A stretch of 58,066 nucleotides of DNA from Bacteroidota bacterium (GTDB lineage Bacteria > Bacteroidota > Bacteroidia > Flavobacteriales > Crocinitomicaceae): positions 1 through 58,066 of the forward strand of contig JAKQEZ010000656.1 of assembly GCA_029558435.1 (NCBI GenBank), given 5' to 3'. The notes under the pieces were generated by a model. That model ran no database searches. It was not told where the DNA came from and saw only the letters and a list, made by a program, of their open reading frames with translations. The translations under genes were made by a program, and so were the position numbers. Of the stretch, positions 1 to 9,204 are shown piece after piece. How positions within the stretch are numbered: position 1 is the first letter of the stretch; every line of letters begins with the position of its first letter.

Positions 1-230
1 TTGCGCGGCATCTCAACCATCTTAGCCGGCAAGCCGTCGCGTTCCCAAAACTCACGGCTAATTTTGACAATGTTCTCGCGGGTATATGGCGAAATATCGT
101 TTGGCGATGAACCATAGATTGAGCGATATAACAAGTCTTCGTCGCCGTCCACGCCTGAATAAATGTTTTCAGTTACTCGTGCGGTTGCGGGCTTGACTTG
201 CTTTTTAGGTGTTTTCTTTTTTGCTGGCAT
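1..230 (-). CDS. Partial ORF of unknown function, cut by left edge
   Basis: An ORF begins with ATG at 230 and runs open off the left edge (76 codons seen). Its start is basic (MPAKKKTPKKQ) and is followed by an acidic stretch and SPNDISPYTRENIVKISREF. It overlaps the 3' end of the ORF at 205 by 26 bases, the tight packing typical of phage or other compact foreign DNA. Base composition differs from the rest of the window: 35 of the first 60 bases are G or C. I do not recognise the family. A phage structural protein such as a portal is a guess that fits the packing, not something the sequence proves. Confidence 0.5.
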   Translation of the reverse strand, partial: MPAKKKTPKKQVKPATARVTENIYSGVDGDEDLLYRSIYGSSPNDISPYTRENIVKISREFWERDGLPAKMVEMPR

Positions 231-1164
231 GGCGTTTCTTTGTAAATGGCCAAATTAAGGTGAGCCGTTCACTGTTTCTTTTCAGCCAAAATTCAGCTGC
301 TAACTTTTTCCCAGCCTCTGCCGATTCACATTCCTTTACCCCATTATCATCCCAATACGGAAAATCCCAGCCCCACTCCCACGTATTTGTATAATTCTCT
401 TCTAAAATCCTTCGAACATAAATATGCTGTCCTATCATCGGCCACGCTTCGTACATCTCAAATGCAGGATTCAATCCAGGGATTTTATCCAATTTAACGT
501 TTTTGTATTCTTCATCTTCAGCAAAAATGATTGGATCTCCTTTACGTTGAGGTACGCTCACAGGAACAACTTCATCGTTAAATTTACCAGCTTGCCATGC
601 AGCAGCCGCTTTTTGGTAAGATGCAATAGCAAAATTATCTTGGTCTTCACGCGTGATGTTGTGTTCTGTTGCACAAACTTCTGCACAGTTCCCCATCGGA
701 ATTCTGTCGTAAGCATCAATCAATCCATCGTTTGCCAATCCATCAATGATTTTAGCATCACCATATTTAACACCGTTACGAGCACTCATGTAGTGAGGAA
801 CTTGCGACATGCTTTCCATTCCACCTGCAACAACTAAATGATTGTCGCCTGCTAAAATAGATTGAGCTCCCATGATGATAGCTTTCATTCCAGATGCACA
901 TACTTTATTTACGGTTGTACAAGGAACGTGGTTGCTAATTCCAGCTCCTAATGCTGCTTGACGTGCAGGCGCTTGTCCAACACCAGCTTGTAGCACATTT
1001 CCCATAAAAACTTCGTCAATTGTAGTAGGGTCAACATTTCCTTTTTTCAATGCACCCTCAATTGCTGTTGCTCCTAATTTTGTAGCTGTAACTGTAGCTA
1101 ACGAACCTAAGAAAGAACCCATAGGCGTACGTGCAGCTGCAACGATATAAACTTTTTTACTCAT
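205..1164 (-). CDS. Chimeric ORF: acetyl-CoA acetyltransferase (thiolase) N-terminal part joined to unrelated sequence
   Basis: From the ATG at 1164, residues 1-236 are a clear thiolase N-terminal domain. The nucleophile is Cys89 in NKVCASGMK, and the segment before the domain boundary ends in LNPAFE. Thiolases continue there into the GNASGxNDGA region and the C-terminal catalytic His and Cys, and all of that is missing. From about base 456 leftwards the ORF continues in frame into 83 tryptophan-rich residues unlike any thiolase (for example WEWGWDFPYWDDNG), stopping at 205. The longer ORF start at 1191 is a TTG; the ATG at 1164 is preferred and has a TAAATTTG promoter element upstream. As written the protein cannot be an active thiolase. 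Either DNA inserted here or the contig end is chimeric. Confidence 0.7.
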   Translation of the reverse strand: MSKKVYIVAAARTPMGSFLGSLATVTATKLGATAIEGALKKGNVDPTTIDEVFMGNVLQAGVGQAPARQAALGAGISNHVPCTTVNKVCASGMKAIIMGAQSILAGDNHLVVAGGMESMSQVPHYMSARNGVKYGDAKIIDGLANDGLIDAYDRIPMGNCAEVCATEHNITREDQDNFAIASYQKAAAAWQAGKFNDEVVPVSVPQRKGDPIIFAEDEEYKNVKLDKIPGLNPAFEMYEAWPMIGQHIYVRRILEENYTNTWEWGWDFPYWDDNGVKECESAEAGKKLAAEFWLKRNSERLTLIWPFTKKRHASKKENT

Positions 1165-1203
1165 GATTTTATCTGGTTTTATTATTTTCAAAAACTAAGT
1201 TCA

Positions 1204-3372: not shown

Positions 3373-3516
3373 ATCATTGGTGTGCATCATCGTTAGGTTT
3401 TGTTCTAATCCAATTGGTATAGATATAAAATTCGAATTTGAAGAACTATTTTTTATAAATAGTAACAAACGAAATTTTATCTTAACTTAGTTGGCTGTAA
3501 AAAGAATAACTTAATA

Positions 3517-5403
3517 ATGACCTTAGAGCAATACATCAACAACATCAATCAACGCTACAAGCAAGGAAATGCAACCGAACATACTTTCCGTGGTGATTTA
3601 CAACAATTGTTAGAAAGTTTGGTTTCGGACATCAGAGCAACCAATGAACCCAAACGCCAATCTTGTGGAGCTCCCGATTACATTCTTACCAAAAAAGATA
3701 TTCCTGTTGGGTTTATTGAAGCCAAAGATATTGGCGATAAAGACCTAGAAGGAGCAAAGAAAACTGGCAATAAAGAACAGTTTGACCGATATAAAGCATC
3801 GCTCAATAATTTAATTTTTACCGATTATTTAGACTTCCATTTGTATCGTGATGGTGAATTTGTAACCAAAATAGCCATTGCCGAACTGCAAAACGGAGCT
3901 ATCGTTGCGTTGCCAAATAATTTTTCAACGTTTACCAACCTTATTCAAGATTTTTGTACACATATTGGACAAACCATTAAAAGTCCAAAAAAATTAGCAG
4001 AAATGATGGCTGGAAAAGCCCGCCTACTTTCTGATGTGATTGAAAAAGCGTTGACAAGTGATGAAAACAACCACGAAAACTCAACCCTAAAAGACCAAAT
4101 GAATGCCTTTCGGGAAATTTTAATTCATGATATTACTCCCAAAGCATTTGCAGATGTTTATGCACAAACCATCGCTTACGGAATGTTTGCAGCACGTTTG
4201 CACGACCCTACGTTACCCACTTTTAGCCGACAAGAAGCCGCAGAATTGATTCCAAAATCCAATCCGTTTTTGCGTAAATTGTTTGGCTACATTGCTGGTC
4301 CTGACATTGACGACCGCATCAAATGGATAGTTGATAATTTAGTAGAAATATTTTTGGCGTGCAACGTAGAGGAAATATTAAAAAATTACGGAAAAGCAAC
4401 AAAAATGGAAAACCCGATTATCCATTTTTATGAAACTTTCCTAAGCGAATACGACCCAAAATTGCGTAAGGCTCGTGGTGTATGGTACACGCCACAACCT
4501 GTTGTTAACTTCATTGTTCGTGCGGTAGATGATATTCTGAAAACTGAATTTAACTTGCCACAAGGATTAGCCGATACCAGTAAAACCAAAATAAAAGTAG
4601 ATGTTCAAGGTAAAAAAGCAGAAAAAGAAGTGCATAAAGTGCAAATTCTGGATCCAGCAACCGGAACAGGTACTTTTTTAGCAGAAGTAGTAAAACACAT
4701 TTACAAAAAGTTTGAAGGACAACAAGGCATTTGGAGCAATTATGTAGAAAATCATTTATTGCCACGCCTCAATGGTTTTGAGTTGCTCATGGCAAGTTAT
4801 GCGATGGCACATTTGCAATTGGATTTGCTTTTAACCGAAACAGGTTACAAGCCCTCAAGCGACCAACGTTTTAGGGTGTATCTGACCAATAGTTTAGAAG
4901 AAAGCCACCCAGATACAGGTACTTTATTTGCCAATTGGTTAAGTTCCGAAGCCAACGAAGCCAATCACATTAAACGCGATACGCCTGTGATGTGTATCAT
5001 TGGGAATCCGCCGTATAGTGGCGAATCTGCCAACAAAGGCGAATGGATTATGAACTTGATGGAAGATTACAAAAAAGAACCTGGCGGAAAAGAAAAACTC
5101 AAAGAGCGAAATCCCAAATGGATTAATGATGATTATGTGAAATTTATCCGTTTCAGCTCTCATCTAATAGAAAAGAATGGCGAAGGAATTTTGGCATTCA
5201 TCAACCCTCATGGGTATTTAGATAACCCTACATTTAGAGGAATGCGCTGGCATTTGATGAAAACTTTTGATAAAATTTACACCATAGATTTGCACGGAAA
5301 TGCCAAGAAAAAAGAAACCGCACCCGATGGAAGTATCGATCAAAATGTGTTCGACATAATGCAAGGCGTAAGCATCAATATTTTTGTAAAGAAGAAAAAC
5401 TAA
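3517..5403 (+). CDS. N-terminal half of a split type IIG/ISP-like restriction-modification enzyme (nuclease + N6-adenine methylase)
   Basis: The 628-aa ORF carries an N-terminal PD-(D/E)XK-type nuclease signature (Asp54 in GAPDY, Glu68 and Lys70 in FIEAK). A helical linker follows, then a gamma-type N6-adenine methylase with AdoMet motif I DPATGTGTF at 379-387 and catalytic NPPY at 497-500. It stops right after QNVFDIMQGVSINIFVK, a position inside the family's methylase-coupler region. Full-length relatives of about 1050 aa continue directly into the segment now encoded at 6405-7673 (628+422=1050). By itself it lacks the target-recognition half. It may work in trans with that half, or the locus may be inactive. 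The stop is 4 bases before the YhcG nuclease ATG. Confidence 0.85.
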   Translation: MTLEQYINNINQRYKQGNATEHTFRGDLQQLLESLVSDIRATNEPKRQSCGAPDYILTKKDIPVGFIEAKDIGDKDLEGAKKTGNKEQFDRYKASLNNLIFTDYLDFHLYRDGEFVTKIAIAELQNGAIVALPNNFSTFTNLIQDFCTHIGQTIKSPKKLAEMMAGKARLLSDVIEKALTSDENNHENSTLKDQMNAFREILIHDITPKAFADVYAQTIAYGMFAARLHDPTLPTFSRQEAAELIPKSNPFLRKLFGYIAGPDIDDRIKWIVDNLVEIFLACNVEEILKNYGKATKMENPIIHFYETFLSEYDPKLRKARGVWYTPQPVVNFIVRAVDDILKTEFNLPQGLADTSKTKIKVDVQGKKAEKEVHKVQILDPATGTGTFLAEVVKHIYKKFEGQQGIWSNYVENHLLPRLNGFELLMASYAMAHLQLDLLLTETGYKPSSDQRFRVYLTNSLEESHPDTGTLFANWLSSEANEANHIKRDTPVMCIIGNPPYSGESANKGEWIMNLMEDYKKEPGGKEKLKERNPKWINDDYVKFIRFSSHLIEKNGEGILAFINPHGYLDNPTFRGMRWHLMKTFDKIYTIDLHGNAKKKETAPDGSIDQNVFDIMQGVSINIFVKKKN

Positions 5404-5407
5404 CTCG

Positions 5408-6415
5408 ATGAATTACCTACACGACATAAAATCCATTCTAGCCTCTGCTCGGCAAAAAGCTTATGTTGCTATTAATTCGGCAATGGTTGAAGCTTATTGG
5501 AAAATTGGTGAACGCATTGTACTAGAAGAACAAAATGGAAAAGACAGAGCAGAATATGGAAAAGAATTGATTAAATCAATTTCAAAAGAACTAACCGCAG
5601 AATTTGGAAAAGGATTTAGTCCAAGAACCATTTGGGAAATTCGTCAATTTCATCTGCTTTTCCCTGATTTTCAAATTGTGCGAACACTGTCCGCACAATT
5701 GACATGGTCGCATTTTCAGCGTGTTTTTAAAGTAAGCAACGAAAAAGCTCGAATGTATTACTTGCAAGAAGCTGCAGCACAAACTTGGTCTATTAGAACT
5801 TTGGATAGAAATATTTCTACCTTGTATTACGACAGAATGTTGGCATCTGACGATAAACAATTGGTGCAAGACGAAATGCATACAAAAACAAAAGCCTTGC
5901 AGGCAGAAGATTTCATTAAAAATCCAATGGTGTTAGAATTTTTGAACCTTCCTGCAGGTAAAGCCTATACCGAAGCAGAATTGGAAAAAGCATTGATAGA
6001 TAATCTGCAAGCTTTTATCTTGGAATTGGGGAAAGGTTTTGCTTTTGTGAGCCGACAAGAACACATCCGTACAGAAAATTCTGATTTTTATATCGATTTG
6101 GTTTTTTACAATTACATCTTGAAATGCTTTGTAATTGTAGAACTAAAAACCGACAAACTCACGCACCAAGACATTGGGCAATTAGATATGTATGTGCGTA
6201 TGTATGACGATCTAAAACGACAAGCCGATGACAATCCTACCATTGGACTTTTGCTCTGTACCGACACCGACAAAGTAGTGGCTAAATACTCTGTATTGAA
6301 CGAAAACAAACAGCTTTTTGCCAGTAAATACATACACTATTTGCCAAGCGAAGAAGAATTAATCCGCGAAATAGAATTACAAAAACAACTTTTTGAACAA
6401 CAACATGAAAAATAA
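5408..6415 (+). CDS. YhcG-family PDDEXK nuclease (DUF1016), lying between the halves of the split enzyme
   Basis: This is a complete 335-aa YhcG/DUF1016 protein. The N-terminal DUF1016_N helical domain spans roughly residues 5-150. The C-terminal PD-(D/E)XK domain has Asp230 (FYIDLVF), Glu245 and Lys247 (VELKT), and the Q258xxxY262 motif that typifies this nuclease family. Family members are often found with type I restriction systems, but their exact role is not settled. Here the gene starts 4 bases after the stop of the methylase half, and its own last 11 bases overlap the ATG (6405) of the recognition half. The three ORFs therefore look translationally coupled. A decayed second copy lies at 7683-8066. 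Catalytic residues appear intact, so this copy is probably functional. Confidence 0.88.
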   Translation: MNYLHDIKSILASARQKAYVAINSAMVEAYWKIGERIVLEEQNGKDRAEYGKELIKSISKELTAEFGKGFSPRTIWEIRQFHLLFPDFQIVRTLSAQLTWSHFQRVFKVSNEKARMYYLQEAAAQTWSIRTLDRNISTLYYDRMLASDDKQLVQDEMHTKTKALQAEDFIKNPMVLEFLNLPAGKAYTEAELEKALIDNLQAFILELGKGFAFVSRQEHIRTENSDFYIDLVFYNYILKCFVIVELKTDKLTHQDIGQLDMYVRMYDDLKRQADDNPTIGLLLCTDTDKVVAKYSVLNENKQLFASKYIHYLPSEEELIREIELQKQLFEQQHEK

Positions 6416-7673
6416 AAAAGCACAAGTTTTTCACTTTGACCTCTACGGAAAACGAGAAGATAAATATGATTTTCTGAACGAAAATTCTGTGAAAAGCATA
6501 GCTTGGACAGAACTTGACCCAAAAGAGCCAGAACTTTTTTTTGTACAAAAAGATTACGGTGCAAAAAGCAGTTATGATGAAGGATTTTCTGTAGCTGAAT
6601 TGTTTTTGGTGAATAGTGTTGGAATTGTTACAGCAAGAGATAATTTTACTATTCATTTCACACCAAAAGAAGTTGAAAATACTATTAGAGATTTTTTATT
6701 ATTAGATGTAGAAGAAGCAAGAATAAAATATGATTTAGGTAAAGACGTAAGAGACTGGTCGATAAGTGGAGCAAAGAAAGATTTACAAAATACTGATTTT
6801 TCAAATATCCAAAAAATACTTTATCGTCCATTTGAAGAAAGATTTACTTATTATACAGGGACAACAAAAGGGTTTCATTGTATGCCTCGAAGTGAAACAA
6901 TGCAACATCTATTTAAACAAAATAACGTTGCATTAATTTGTCCAAAACAAGTTCCTGACAAAGAAGAATCTGGAGTATTTATCACAAAATATATTGCAGG
7001 ACACAAAACAAGTAGTGCATACAACATAAACAATGTATTCCCTCTCTACCTTTATCCCGAGCCAACATTAGGAGCAGAGTCGGAGCGAGTTCCTAATTTG
7101 AATATGGAGATTGTGGAGAAAATAGAAAAAGACCTCAATCATAGTTTTCTCCATGATGATAATATCGTATGTGACCTAGCAGCTGGTTGGGATGGCACAT
7201 TCTCTCCGTTAGATATTTTAGACTATATCTATGCCGTTTTACATTCGCCAACTTACAGAGAAACCTACAAAGAATTTCTGAAAATAGATTTTCCGAGAGT
7301 GCCTTATCCAAAAAACCAAGAATCGTTTTGGAAATTGGTGGAGTTAGGTGCAGAAATACGCCAAATTCATTTGCTGGAAAGCTCAAAAGTTGAAAAATAT
7401 ATTACTCAATATCCAGTTGATGGAGACAATGTAGTTGGTAAACCAAAATACGAAAACGGAAAAGTATTTATCAACGAAACCCAATATTTTGACAATGTTC
7501 CGCAAGTGGCTTGGGAGTTTTACATTGGTGGCTACCAACCGGCACAAAAATGGCTTAAAGACCGCAAAGACCGAACTTTAGATTTTGAAGATATTTTGCA
7601 TTATCAAAAAATTATTGTGGCATTGACAGAAACCGATAGATTGATGAAGGAGATTGATAAAATCATATTGTAG
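6405..7673 (+). CDS. C-terminal half of the split type IIG/ISP-like enzyme (coupler and target recognition)
   Basis: The 422-aa ORF begins MKNKKAQVFHFDLYGKR. In intact family members this sequence follows the methylase domain within the same protein, so this is the missing continuation of the ORF at 3517. It should contain the end of the methylase, the coupler and the target-recognition domain; aromatic clusters such as LYRPFEERFTYY and VAWEFYIGGYQPAQKWLKDR are typical of that region. The ATG at 6405 lies inside the last 11 bases of the YhcG gene; the TTG at 6393 is a weaker alternative. Whether it assembles with the first half into one enzyme is not known. No frameshifts were seen inside it, which argues for selection or a recent split. 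Confidence 0.8.
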   Translation: MKNKKAQVFHFDLYGKREDKYDFLNENSVKSIAWTELDPKEPELFFVQKDYGAKSSYDEGFSVAELFLVNSVGIVTARDNFTIHFTPKEVENTIRDFLLLDVEEARIKYDLGKDVRDWSISGAKKDLQNTDFSNIQKILYRPFEERFTYYTGTTKGFHCMPRSETMQHLFKQNNVALICPKQVPDKEESGVFITKYIAGHKTSSAYNINNVFPLYLYPEPTLGAESERVPNLNMEIVEKIEKDLNHSFLHDDNIVCDLAAGWDGTFSPLDILDYIYAVLHSPTYRETYKEFLKIDFPRVPYPKNQESFWKLVELGAEIRQIHLLESSKVEKYITQYPVDGDNVVGKPKYENGKVFINETQYFDNVPQVAWEFYIGGYQPAQKWLKDRKDRTLDFEDILHYQKIIVALTETDRLMKEIDKIIL

Positions 7674-7682
7674 ATTTACACT

Positions 7683-8066
7683 GCAATGGTTGAAGCTTAT
7701 TGGAAAATTAGTGAACGCATTGTGCTAGAAGAACAAAACGGAAAAGACAGAGCAGAATATGGAAAAGAATTGATTTAATCAATTTCAAAAGAACTAACCT
7801 CAGAATTTGGGAAAGGATTTGGAGAGAGAGTTGTCTTTTTAATGAGACAGTTTTATTTAACCTTTCCAGATTTTCAAATTGTGCGAACACTGTGTGCACA
7901 ATTGACATGGTCACATTTTAAAAGAGTTTTAAGCGTTACAAACGAAAAAGCTCAAATGTATTACTTGCAAGAAGCTGCCGCACAAACTTGGTCTATTAGA
8001 ACATTGGATAGAAATATTTCTACCTTATATTTCAACAAAATATTGCATCTGGTAATAAAAAGTTGG
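7683..8066 (+). pseudogene. Decayed second copy of the YhcG nuclease N-terminal domain
   Basis: This stretch aligns along its length with 5480-5864 of the intact YhcG gene, with long identical runs. It is dead: the codon AAA of the intact copy is TAA at 7776-7778. A one-base deletion near 8044 (TTGGCATCT becomes TTGCATCT) shifts the frame. The nuclease domain is missing entirely. The first 20 codons are also missing, so homology begins 10 bases after the stop of the recognition-half gene. An apparent ORF at 7842-8111 is only the surviving middle of this pseudogene. The copies have diverged noticeably, so the duplication is old or the copies arrived separately. Confidence 0.85.
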
Positions 8067-8142
8067 CGTAATTTCTGTTCTGCTCTAAAAAATTGGTTGG
8101 TAGTTGTGTAACAATTCACCGTTCTATCCGTTTTAAAGAAGT

Positions 8143-9204
8143 ATGAAAAGAGCTGTTTTATTTTTGGTTATTTTATTTTTTGGAGTGTTCACCTCTGTGT
8201 GGACGCAAGATTTAGCACAACAAGAACAAGAGTTGGCTGAGTTATTATCCAACCTGCGTGCAGCAAAAAATAATGCTGAAAAACAAAAAGCAAATACAGT
8301 TTTTAAAGCAAAGATGGAAGCAACCATCCAATTAAAAGGTGCTTTTGAATATCCTTTTTCTCAGTTAAAAACAGTGGGTACCATCAAAAGCCCCGATAAT
8401 GTTTTTCGTTTCTTTAATTGGAATGTGGAGCAAGACGATATGACCCAAAAATACTATTGCTACATTCTAAAATTCAATGATAGAACCGAGCAATACGATG
8501 TTATTGAGCTGAAAGATAAAAGTTTTATGTTGCCACGTCGACCGCAAGACATTTTAGAAAGCGATATGTGGTATGGTGCTTTGTACTATAAAATCATCCC
8601 GTTCAAAAAAGGTTCAAAAGAGGTGTACACCATTTTGGGATGGATGGGCAACAATTCATCCAGCACCATGAAAGTTATTGACGTACTTTCTTTTAGCGGA
8701 AAAGTGGCACGCTTGGGTAGTCCGGTTTTTAAAAATGGCAAAGAACTGCAAAAACGTGTATTTTTTGAATTTGCCGAAAAAACATCCATGTATTTGAATT
8801 ACGAAGAAAAATACAACCGCATTATTTTTGATCACCTATCGCCCGAAACACCCGAATTAAAAGGAATGTATTCTATGTATTTGCCCGATTTATCGTATGA
8901 TGCCTATCAATTTGAAAACGGTAAATGGGTTTTGAAAGAAGACGTAATTGGCGTTAACAACAAAGAAGCAGATGCCATAAAAGTGCAGGTGAAAGACGAA
9001 AAAACAGGGAAAATAAAAGAAATTCAAGTTAAAAACAAGTGGGAAGGACCATCCACATCGCATGTTGCTACAACTCCTGAAGAACAGATGAAAGGCGTTG
9101 AAAACAAAGAAAATACGCCAAAAACAAAAGAAAAAAAGCAAAAAGGAAAAACCCCTCAAAGCTACAATCCTGTTGACAACATTAAGCACAAGAAAAAAAG
9201 ATAG
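8143..9204 (+). CDS. Conserved secreted protein of unknown function
   Basis: The 353-aa product begins with a signal peptide (hydrophobic residues 4-20, cleavage likely after VWTQ). A coiled, Gln/Glu/Lys-rich stretch at about 22-60 is followed by a mixed alpha/beta core rich in aromatic residues. The tail, from about 290, is very basic and low-complexity, ending KHKKKR. I recognise it only as a type of protein common in Flavobacteriales and cannot assign a function. It starts downstream of the YhcG pseudogene and is followed after 3 bases by a small membrane-protein gene, so the two probably form an operon. No TAnnTTTG element is obvious in the short upstream gap. Confidence 0.75.
   Translation: MKRAVLFLVILFFGVFTSVWTQDLAQQEQELAELLSNLRAAKNNAEKQKANTVFKAKMEATIQLKGAFEYPFSQLKTVGTIKSPDNVFRFFNWNVEQDDMTQKYYCYILKFNDRTEQYDVIELKDKSFMLPRRPQDILESDMWYGALYYKIIPFKKGSKEVYTILGWMGNNSSSTMKVIDVLSFSGKVARLGSPVFKNGKELQKRVFFEFAEKTSMYLNYEEKYNRIIFDHLSPETPELKGMYSMYLPDLSYDAYQFENGKWVLKEDVIGVNNKEADAIKVQVKDEKTGKIKEIQVKNKWEGPSTSHVATTPEEQMKGVENKENTPKTKEKKQKGKTPQSYNPVDNIKHKKKR

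Follow-up and report, generated by a model that had tools for sequence, protein, structure and literature searches.

Why does a complete nuclease gene stand between the two halves of a restriction-modification (R-M) enzyme? The question is raised by contig JAKQEZ010000656.1 of a Bacteroidota bacterium, of which a stretch of 58,066 nt was analyzed (the window, to whose positions all coordinates refer). Its plus strand carries three intact open reading frames (ORFs) at 3517-5403 (628 aa), 5408-6415 (335 aa) and, counted from an ATG, 6405-7673 (422 aa). Pfam assigns N6_Mtase/Eco57I/MmeI_Mtase to the first, DUF1016_N and YhcG_C to the second and Type_ISP_C to the third. The outer ORFs, hereafter N (first half) and C (second half), sum to 1050 aa (628 + 422), and both match a single PADLOC model, the IIG model PDLC03610 (1096 positions), N with its best stretch at 1-497 and C at 652-1075; the YhcG protein matches PDC-S02. 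The yhcG gene starts 4 nt after the stop of the restriction-modification (RM) gene, and its end overlaps the specificity ATG by 11 nt. This arrangement, described in an earlier note on the same DNA, is borne out by the ORFs and domains. We propose, as the probable reading, that the locus encodes a stable two-subunit variant of a IIG/ISP-like R-M enzyme with a cargo slot, in which YhcG would serve as an accessory or guard nuclease. The two-subunit variant with its slot is well supported; the idea that YhcG is retained next to the enzyme in an accessory or guard function is a tentative part of the proposal.

An enzyme divided at one residue

The RM subunit (3517-5403) combines a PD-(D/E)XK nuclease with an N6-adenine methyltransferase that extends up to the strand before the split. 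Its nuclease motif, PDY...E-A-K at residues 53-70 (3673-3726), is intact, and P53, D54, Y55, E68, A69 and K70 are invariant in alignments of 11 and 50 rows. Methylase motifs I (DPATGTGTF, 4651-4677) and IV (NPPY, 5005-5016) can likewise be read intact in the sequence. The specificity subunit (6405-7673) consists of the predicted last methylase strand and a Type_ISP_C recognition domain, which scores 309.8 bits on the ORF 6393-7673. Could the break between the two be an assembly error at 5403 or 6405? This is scarcely conceivable, given that locus L189, from another genome and with an N protein 90% identical, has the same junctions; the first one, comprising the RM-subunit stop and the 4-nt spacer (5401-5407), differs by a single spacer base.

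To place the window among its relatives, DNA loci were fetched for the best 80 of 334 relatives from genome contigs, together with 12 viral loci. Around Bacteroidota loci, 1978 genome searches (some genomes repeated) were run with 46 stand-alone second halves as queries and scored up to four candidates per genome, so that their results hold among the matches listed. Another 25 regions were added because they looked split. Across all fetched loci, 212 N ORFs reach residue 600, of which 186 are fused to C (181 loci, some genes being fetched twice), 22 are split and four run off the contig; as split-looking regions were deliberately fetched, 22/212 is not a frequency. The 22 split ORFs represent 17 distinct loci, and every N half ends 0-5 residues past query residue 625-628. 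Eleven of the 17 split loci come from the 25 chosen regions. Among the remaining 14 regions, L244 shows a second half alone, whereas all others are fused, damaged or ended by the contig. The best 80 loci comprise five split cases, four that run off the contig and 71 others, including two with a stop inside N.

Among the best 120 homologues of the first half, 11, including that of the window, are 628-636 aa long and share the same end point and a Lys-rich tail, 107 are fused (1011-1089 aa) and two are partial. Of the stand-alone second-half homologues listed (n = 120), approximately 61 begin with Met and a few residues, followed by (L/K)AQVFHFDLYGKR or a close variant (49 found by pattern after removal of three fused-protein fragments, 12 by eye); the length limits of this search leave out fused proteins, and the proportion is therefore not a split-to-fused ratio. 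One listed second-half homologue, a partial protein from Taishania sp., a genus of Crocinitomicaceae, is 100% identical to that of the window, which probably derives from Taishania or a near relation. The listed fused homologues mostly bear a linker of approximately ten residues over the junction (VK-TGKKKxNELG-KVFHxDLxGKR), in whose place the split forms end N with a few Lys-rich residues (VKKKN) and begin C anew with MKNKKAQ. The earlier statement that KAQVFHFDLYGKR follows directly in intact relatives thus does not hold. The start of the second half also differs in composition between the two forms: residues A6, Q7 and W34 are found in 63, 55 and 63 of 70 split rows vs 45, 34 and 54 of 283 fused rows, the split rows leaving out L144, L239, P0133, P0195 and P0211 as fused-protein fragments or off-contig sequences.

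Because the same split is found in 17 distinct loci, it is not a private accident of the window. The earlier note had weighed a split enzyme against a recent clean insertion, which would have inactivated the enzyme in one genome. The junctions are indeed clean, and the fetched loci, which were partly chosen and include some genes twice, contain more fused than split ORFs (186 vs 22). Nevertheless, a recent insertion is extremely unlikely: the break recurs, the motifs are intact in both window halves, the second-half start carries the split-associated signature, and YhcG, whose dN/dS is approximately 0.10 when the window is compared with L189 or L192, is by this measure under purifying selection. 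The split enzyme is favored by the 17 loci and by the ten other listed proteins that end at the same place. Close relatives that occur in the separate form with no fused form had been named as evidence to the contrary; among the matches listed, fused and split forms are both common among close relatives.

The position of the cut and the contents of the slot

Where in the protein fold does the cut lie? In a structure model of the fused relative P0020 (pLDDT 79.6, pTM 0.59), strands 618-625 and 635-642, which would count as strands 6 and 7 in the customary numbering of class I methylases, flank a loop at 626-634 that contains the split. In the window, the strand that follows the split turn in fused relatives corresponds, according to this model, to the QVFHFDLY codons at 6423-6446. 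Solved type I M chains (2okc, 3ufb, 7vs4, 2ar0, 3lkd and 3khk) align as far as model residue 669-681, and the type IIB BsaXI chains align to residue 663, these values being end points only; 7eew, which aligned to residue 943 with a root-mean-square deviation of 20.8, was set aside. The break would therefore lie within the methylase fold, at a predicted turn, and the solved type I and IIB subunits extend beyond it. Because the type I and BsaXI chains align past the split residue, the strand that opens the specificity half here seems to belong to the M part in those systems.

The gap between the halves is filled in all 17 split loci. It holds YhcG in 13 of them, including the window, and other genes only in the remaining four; the same gene order, which the earlier note suggested looking for in other genomes, is thus recurrent. 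YhcG is found in the window, L001 (two copies), L007, L071 (with KilA-N), L076, L189, L191 (two copies with RhuM between), L192, L231, L234, L236, L243 (with YhcG fragments and a RAYT-like gene, a likeness seen by eye without a Pfam match) and L245. The other slots contain Y1_Tnp (L033, below the cut-off), DUF3800 (L190), PIN (L232, below the cut-off) or Bro-N (L237). The YhcG proteins of the slot fall into at least two groups that are approximately 30% alike. At an E-value of 1e-5, YhcG was found inside none of the 186 fused ORFs. A stricter rule, that YhcG never occurs near a fused gene, proved too strong: a remnant lies 112 nt downstream of the fused gene in L002 (the same place as L115), and a fused gene adjoins the split system in L245/L225. 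At least 3 kb of downstream sequence is present for only 66 of the 186 fused ORFs.

Eleven loci have a readable second-half start with YhcG as the gene directly upstream. In nine of them (the window, L001, L007, L076, L189, L231, L234, L236 and L245), the two genes share 8, 11 or 14 nt, always in the same register. The overlap spans 6405-6415 in the window and was measured, there and in L189, from the ATG (11 nt) and not from an upstream TTG (23 nt). In the four split loci that lack YhcG, 1 to 163 nt separate the slot gene from the second half. The overlap of yhcG with the specificity start suggests that the translation of the two genes may be coupled.

Is YhcG then an obligate third subunit that bridges both halves? 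Its presence in 13 of the 17 split loci and its overlap with the specificity start in 9 of 11 would fit such a role. However, four split loci carry another slot gene and no YhcG, and at least two unlike YhcG groups (approximately 30% identity) occupy the same place. We thus regard an obligate subunit as very unlikely; of the three coupled subunits that had been suggested, the overlap of yhcG with the specificity gene is borne out and the dependence on YhcG is not supported.

As for the YhcG protein itself, the window copy (5408-6415) has DUF1016_N and YhcG_C with a D...ExK motif (D230...E245-L-K247, 6095-6148), which is invariant in a 31-row alignment, and is a predicted PD-(D/E)XK nuclease; DNA cleavage and phage defence are predicted functions only. 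The D...(E/D)xK motif is present in all 16 YhcG ORFs read, one of which (L244) is located after the second half. The YhcG fold model has a mean pLDDT of 67.6, too weak for a fold search, and a sequence search of the PDB gave no match up to an E-value of 1.

A similar slot exists in type I R-M operons. Of 461 records with a match, 40 were listed, and from these we chose 16 annotated plasmid contexts of YhcG to read. In four of them (L253, L255, L260 and L287), the gene sits between hsdM and hsdS, overlapping hsdS by 8, 4 or 11 nt in three and separated from it by 24 nt in the fourth, and it follows hsdS within the hsd operon in one other (L284). Type I systems thus use the same slot. Among the window ORFs of at least 600 aa (n = 8), none is an hsdR; the seven besides the RM subunit match other families.

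A second cargo place may exist after the specificity gene. A degraded second yhcG copy, missed by the earlier note, begins directly after the last stop of the specificity gene in the window (7674-8045, plus strand); it covers approximately codons 22-145, contains an in-frame TAA and has DNA identities of 93% and 84% in two aligned segments. In L244 (1947-5060 of the turned locus), a RhuM-like gene precedes the second half and YhcG follows it, with no first half in view. The remnant of the window and the YhcG of L244 suggest that this place is also used.

Some further features of the relatives were noted. Stand-alone specificity halves with DUF559 inserted between the recognition and C-terminal parts were seen in P0123, P0140, P0162 and L189:5501-7294. 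Short repeats, identified by eye, overlap the second half in L076 (HAERSEAS/VQDD-like), L234 (SSPPLEG-like) and L243 (AFASSEGF); those of L243 are present in its RAYT-like gene, too. L046, L056 and L057, from one Cytophagales metagenome-assembled genome (MAG), contain two or three fused IIG-like enzymes head to tail, with first halves alike and recognition parts unlike.

Possible exchange of the slot region and origin of the split

How did the split come to lie at the same residue in so many loci? Compared with L189 and L192, the synonymous divergence (dS) of the window YhcG is 0.48 and 0.51 vs 1.28 and 1.34 for N, the N of L192 being a remnant of 96 codons. In the other pairs the difference narrows or vanishes; the corresponding values for YhcG and N are 1.07 and 1.77 for L071, 1.43 and 2.38 for L191, 1.49 and 1.53 for L001, and saturated and 2.25 for L007. 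DNA identity to L192 is 63-71% at 5117-5316, mostly 84-98% over 5317-6516 (67% in one segment) and 45-63% over 6517-7016. A weaker profile of the same shape is seen with L189 (78-97% over 5217-6516, then 52-58%). In two of the six pairs (L192 and L189), the stretch from the end of the first half through YhcG into the beginning of the second thus looks like one recombination block. L192 apparently has extra homopolymer bases, and its frame breaks may be sequencing errors.

The trees of the N half do not trace the split to one event. A single origin by the N half was rejected, with nine changes on a 217-row tree that includes 19 split rows (200 label shuffles: mean 18.4, minimum 16), as was a single clade of split N halves (p-AU 0.036 and nine changes on a quick tree of 70 rows, comprising all 19 split and 51 fused ones). 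The split N halves would so reflect an exchange of N halves or repeated splitting and not one simple clade. A tree of the C start (359 rows, at most 110 columns, 34 changes) is too short to resolve the matter, and the residue frequencies given above were used instead. In L007, a split-type start appears by eye to be joined to a fused-type body.

The main rival to our proposal draws on the same mosaic. YhcG could be a self-serving cassette: inserted where the enzyme gene tolerates a break, it would provide the new stop and start and be passed on by homologous recombination, without benefit to the R-M system. This reading accounts for the block common to the window, L189 and L192, with a dS below that of the flanking gene, and for the decay of the second yhcG copy and the breakage of some split enzymes. 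YhcG proteins of 75-78% identity, among the listed matches, occur in Leptotrichia, Glaesserella and Capnocytophaga, which also fits a mobile cassette. However, other, unrelated genes use the same slot, and YhcG also occupies the hsdM-hsdS slot of type I operons, which points to a benefit of the place and not of one cassette. On balance, we judge a self-serving cassette somewhat unlikely.

Several observations weigh against our own proposal. Some split loci are damaged: L001 and L007 have a broken C, L071 has lost most of its C, and N is a remnant in L192 and L245. In addition, five of the split loci besides the window are from MAGs. The overlap is replaced by a 54-nt gap in L191, and the YhcG of L243 overlaps a short duplicated start (60 aa) by 14 nt, the full-length half following 149 nt after YhcG. 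The mosaic block is absent in four of the six pairs (L071, L191, L001 and L007), and the YhcG of L007 is more diverged than its N. Given that the split N halves do not appear to form one clade, the word stable may hide repeated splitting. Confidence in the P0020 model is low around the split (block pLDDT 57-66; pTM 0.59). Finally, 11 of the 16 plasmid YhcG genes lie outside R-M operons.

How would the divided enzyme work under the proposed two-subunit reading? The RM subunit would carry the nuclease and most of the methylase, and the specificity subunit would contribute the target recognition domain together with the final strand of the methylase. Judging from the fold, the halves would have to assemble in order to methylate or cut at a specific site. 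The gap between them would act as a cargo slot, like the hsdM-hsdS gap of type I operons, which here holds YhcG. The block that runs from the end of the RM gene across yhcG into the first part of the specificity gene could pass between related enzymes by homologous recombination, which would explain why the split always lies at the same residue. A bolder version, which we consider unlikely, is a switchable enzyme: as the specificity subunit donates the last methylase strand, methylation and recognition would occur only on assembly, and the opened site would have become a general receptacle for guard nucleases and other effectors. These would travel as recombination blocks that bring their own homology arms, and the hsdM-hsdS slot would be a receptacle of the same kind.

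Genomic site and known systems

The R-M genes form a 4.77-kb island (3373-8142) between rpe, identified by Pfam, and a conserved hypothetical gene at 8143. In the family member G171 (L262), rpe and the hypothetical gene adjoin without R-M genes, and the next three genes are in the same order. In G1925 and G1921 (L282, 4821-5300, and L283), a gene of approximately 150 aa, DinB-like by eye and unlike R-M genes, lies between the two. This comparison covers 3 of the 21 family genomes searched. Near the window end, a thiolase ORF (205-1191, minus strand) has the N-terminal domain only (Thiolase_N, 14-245), and no other match was obtained there for its last 75 or so residues, so that the ORF may result from a chimeric join.

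The domain order of the window, with an N-terminal PD-(D/E)XK nuclease, an N6-methylase and a C-terminal Type_ISP_C, is that of single-chain IIG/ISP-like enzymes (PDLC03610; DrdV 7lo5, LlaBIII 4xqk and LlaGI 5ffj). However, those enzymes are one polypeptide, whereas the window encodes two proteins with a gene between them. It also differs from type ISP proper, as neither half has an ATPase or helicase match in Pfam and LlaBIII has 1578 aa vs 1050 in the window. BcgI-type (type IIB) enzymes have nuclease and methylase in one subunit and recognition in another, according to the available portion of PMC3510504. The gene order and domains of the window likewise indicate separate RM and S subunits, but its break would fall before the predicted last methylase strand, whereas the BsaXI chains reach model residue 663, and a gene lies between its subunits. 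Type I operons in which a gene separates hsdM from hsdS have the same slot, but the M part of the window carries its own nuclease.

The M-S fusion of EcoKI (type IMS) indicates that M and S work either joined or separate (PMC3510504, same portion); that fusion was made in the laboratory, in the opposite direction and at the M-S border. An accessory nuclease gene embedded in an R-M locus is exemplified by prrC in ecoprrI (PMC12707154, in the part available). PrrC is a tRNA anticodon nuclease, whereas YhcG is a predicted DNA nuclease (PMC1189080, also in part), and their likeness as guardians rests on position and overlap. The accessible text of PMC1189080 names just one YhcG beside a type I cluster, and a literature search of titles and abstract openings returned nothing on a split IIG enzyme with YhcG between its halves.

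In the proposed two-subunit variant, a single-chain enzyme is found in nature in a type I-like layout of M, cargo and S, with the fused form still common beside it; therefore, the link between IIG and multi-subunit R-M systems can be tested. The proposal also marks the M-S junction as a site that would retain YhcG, a common defence candidate, and suggests a partner with which YhcG may be tested.

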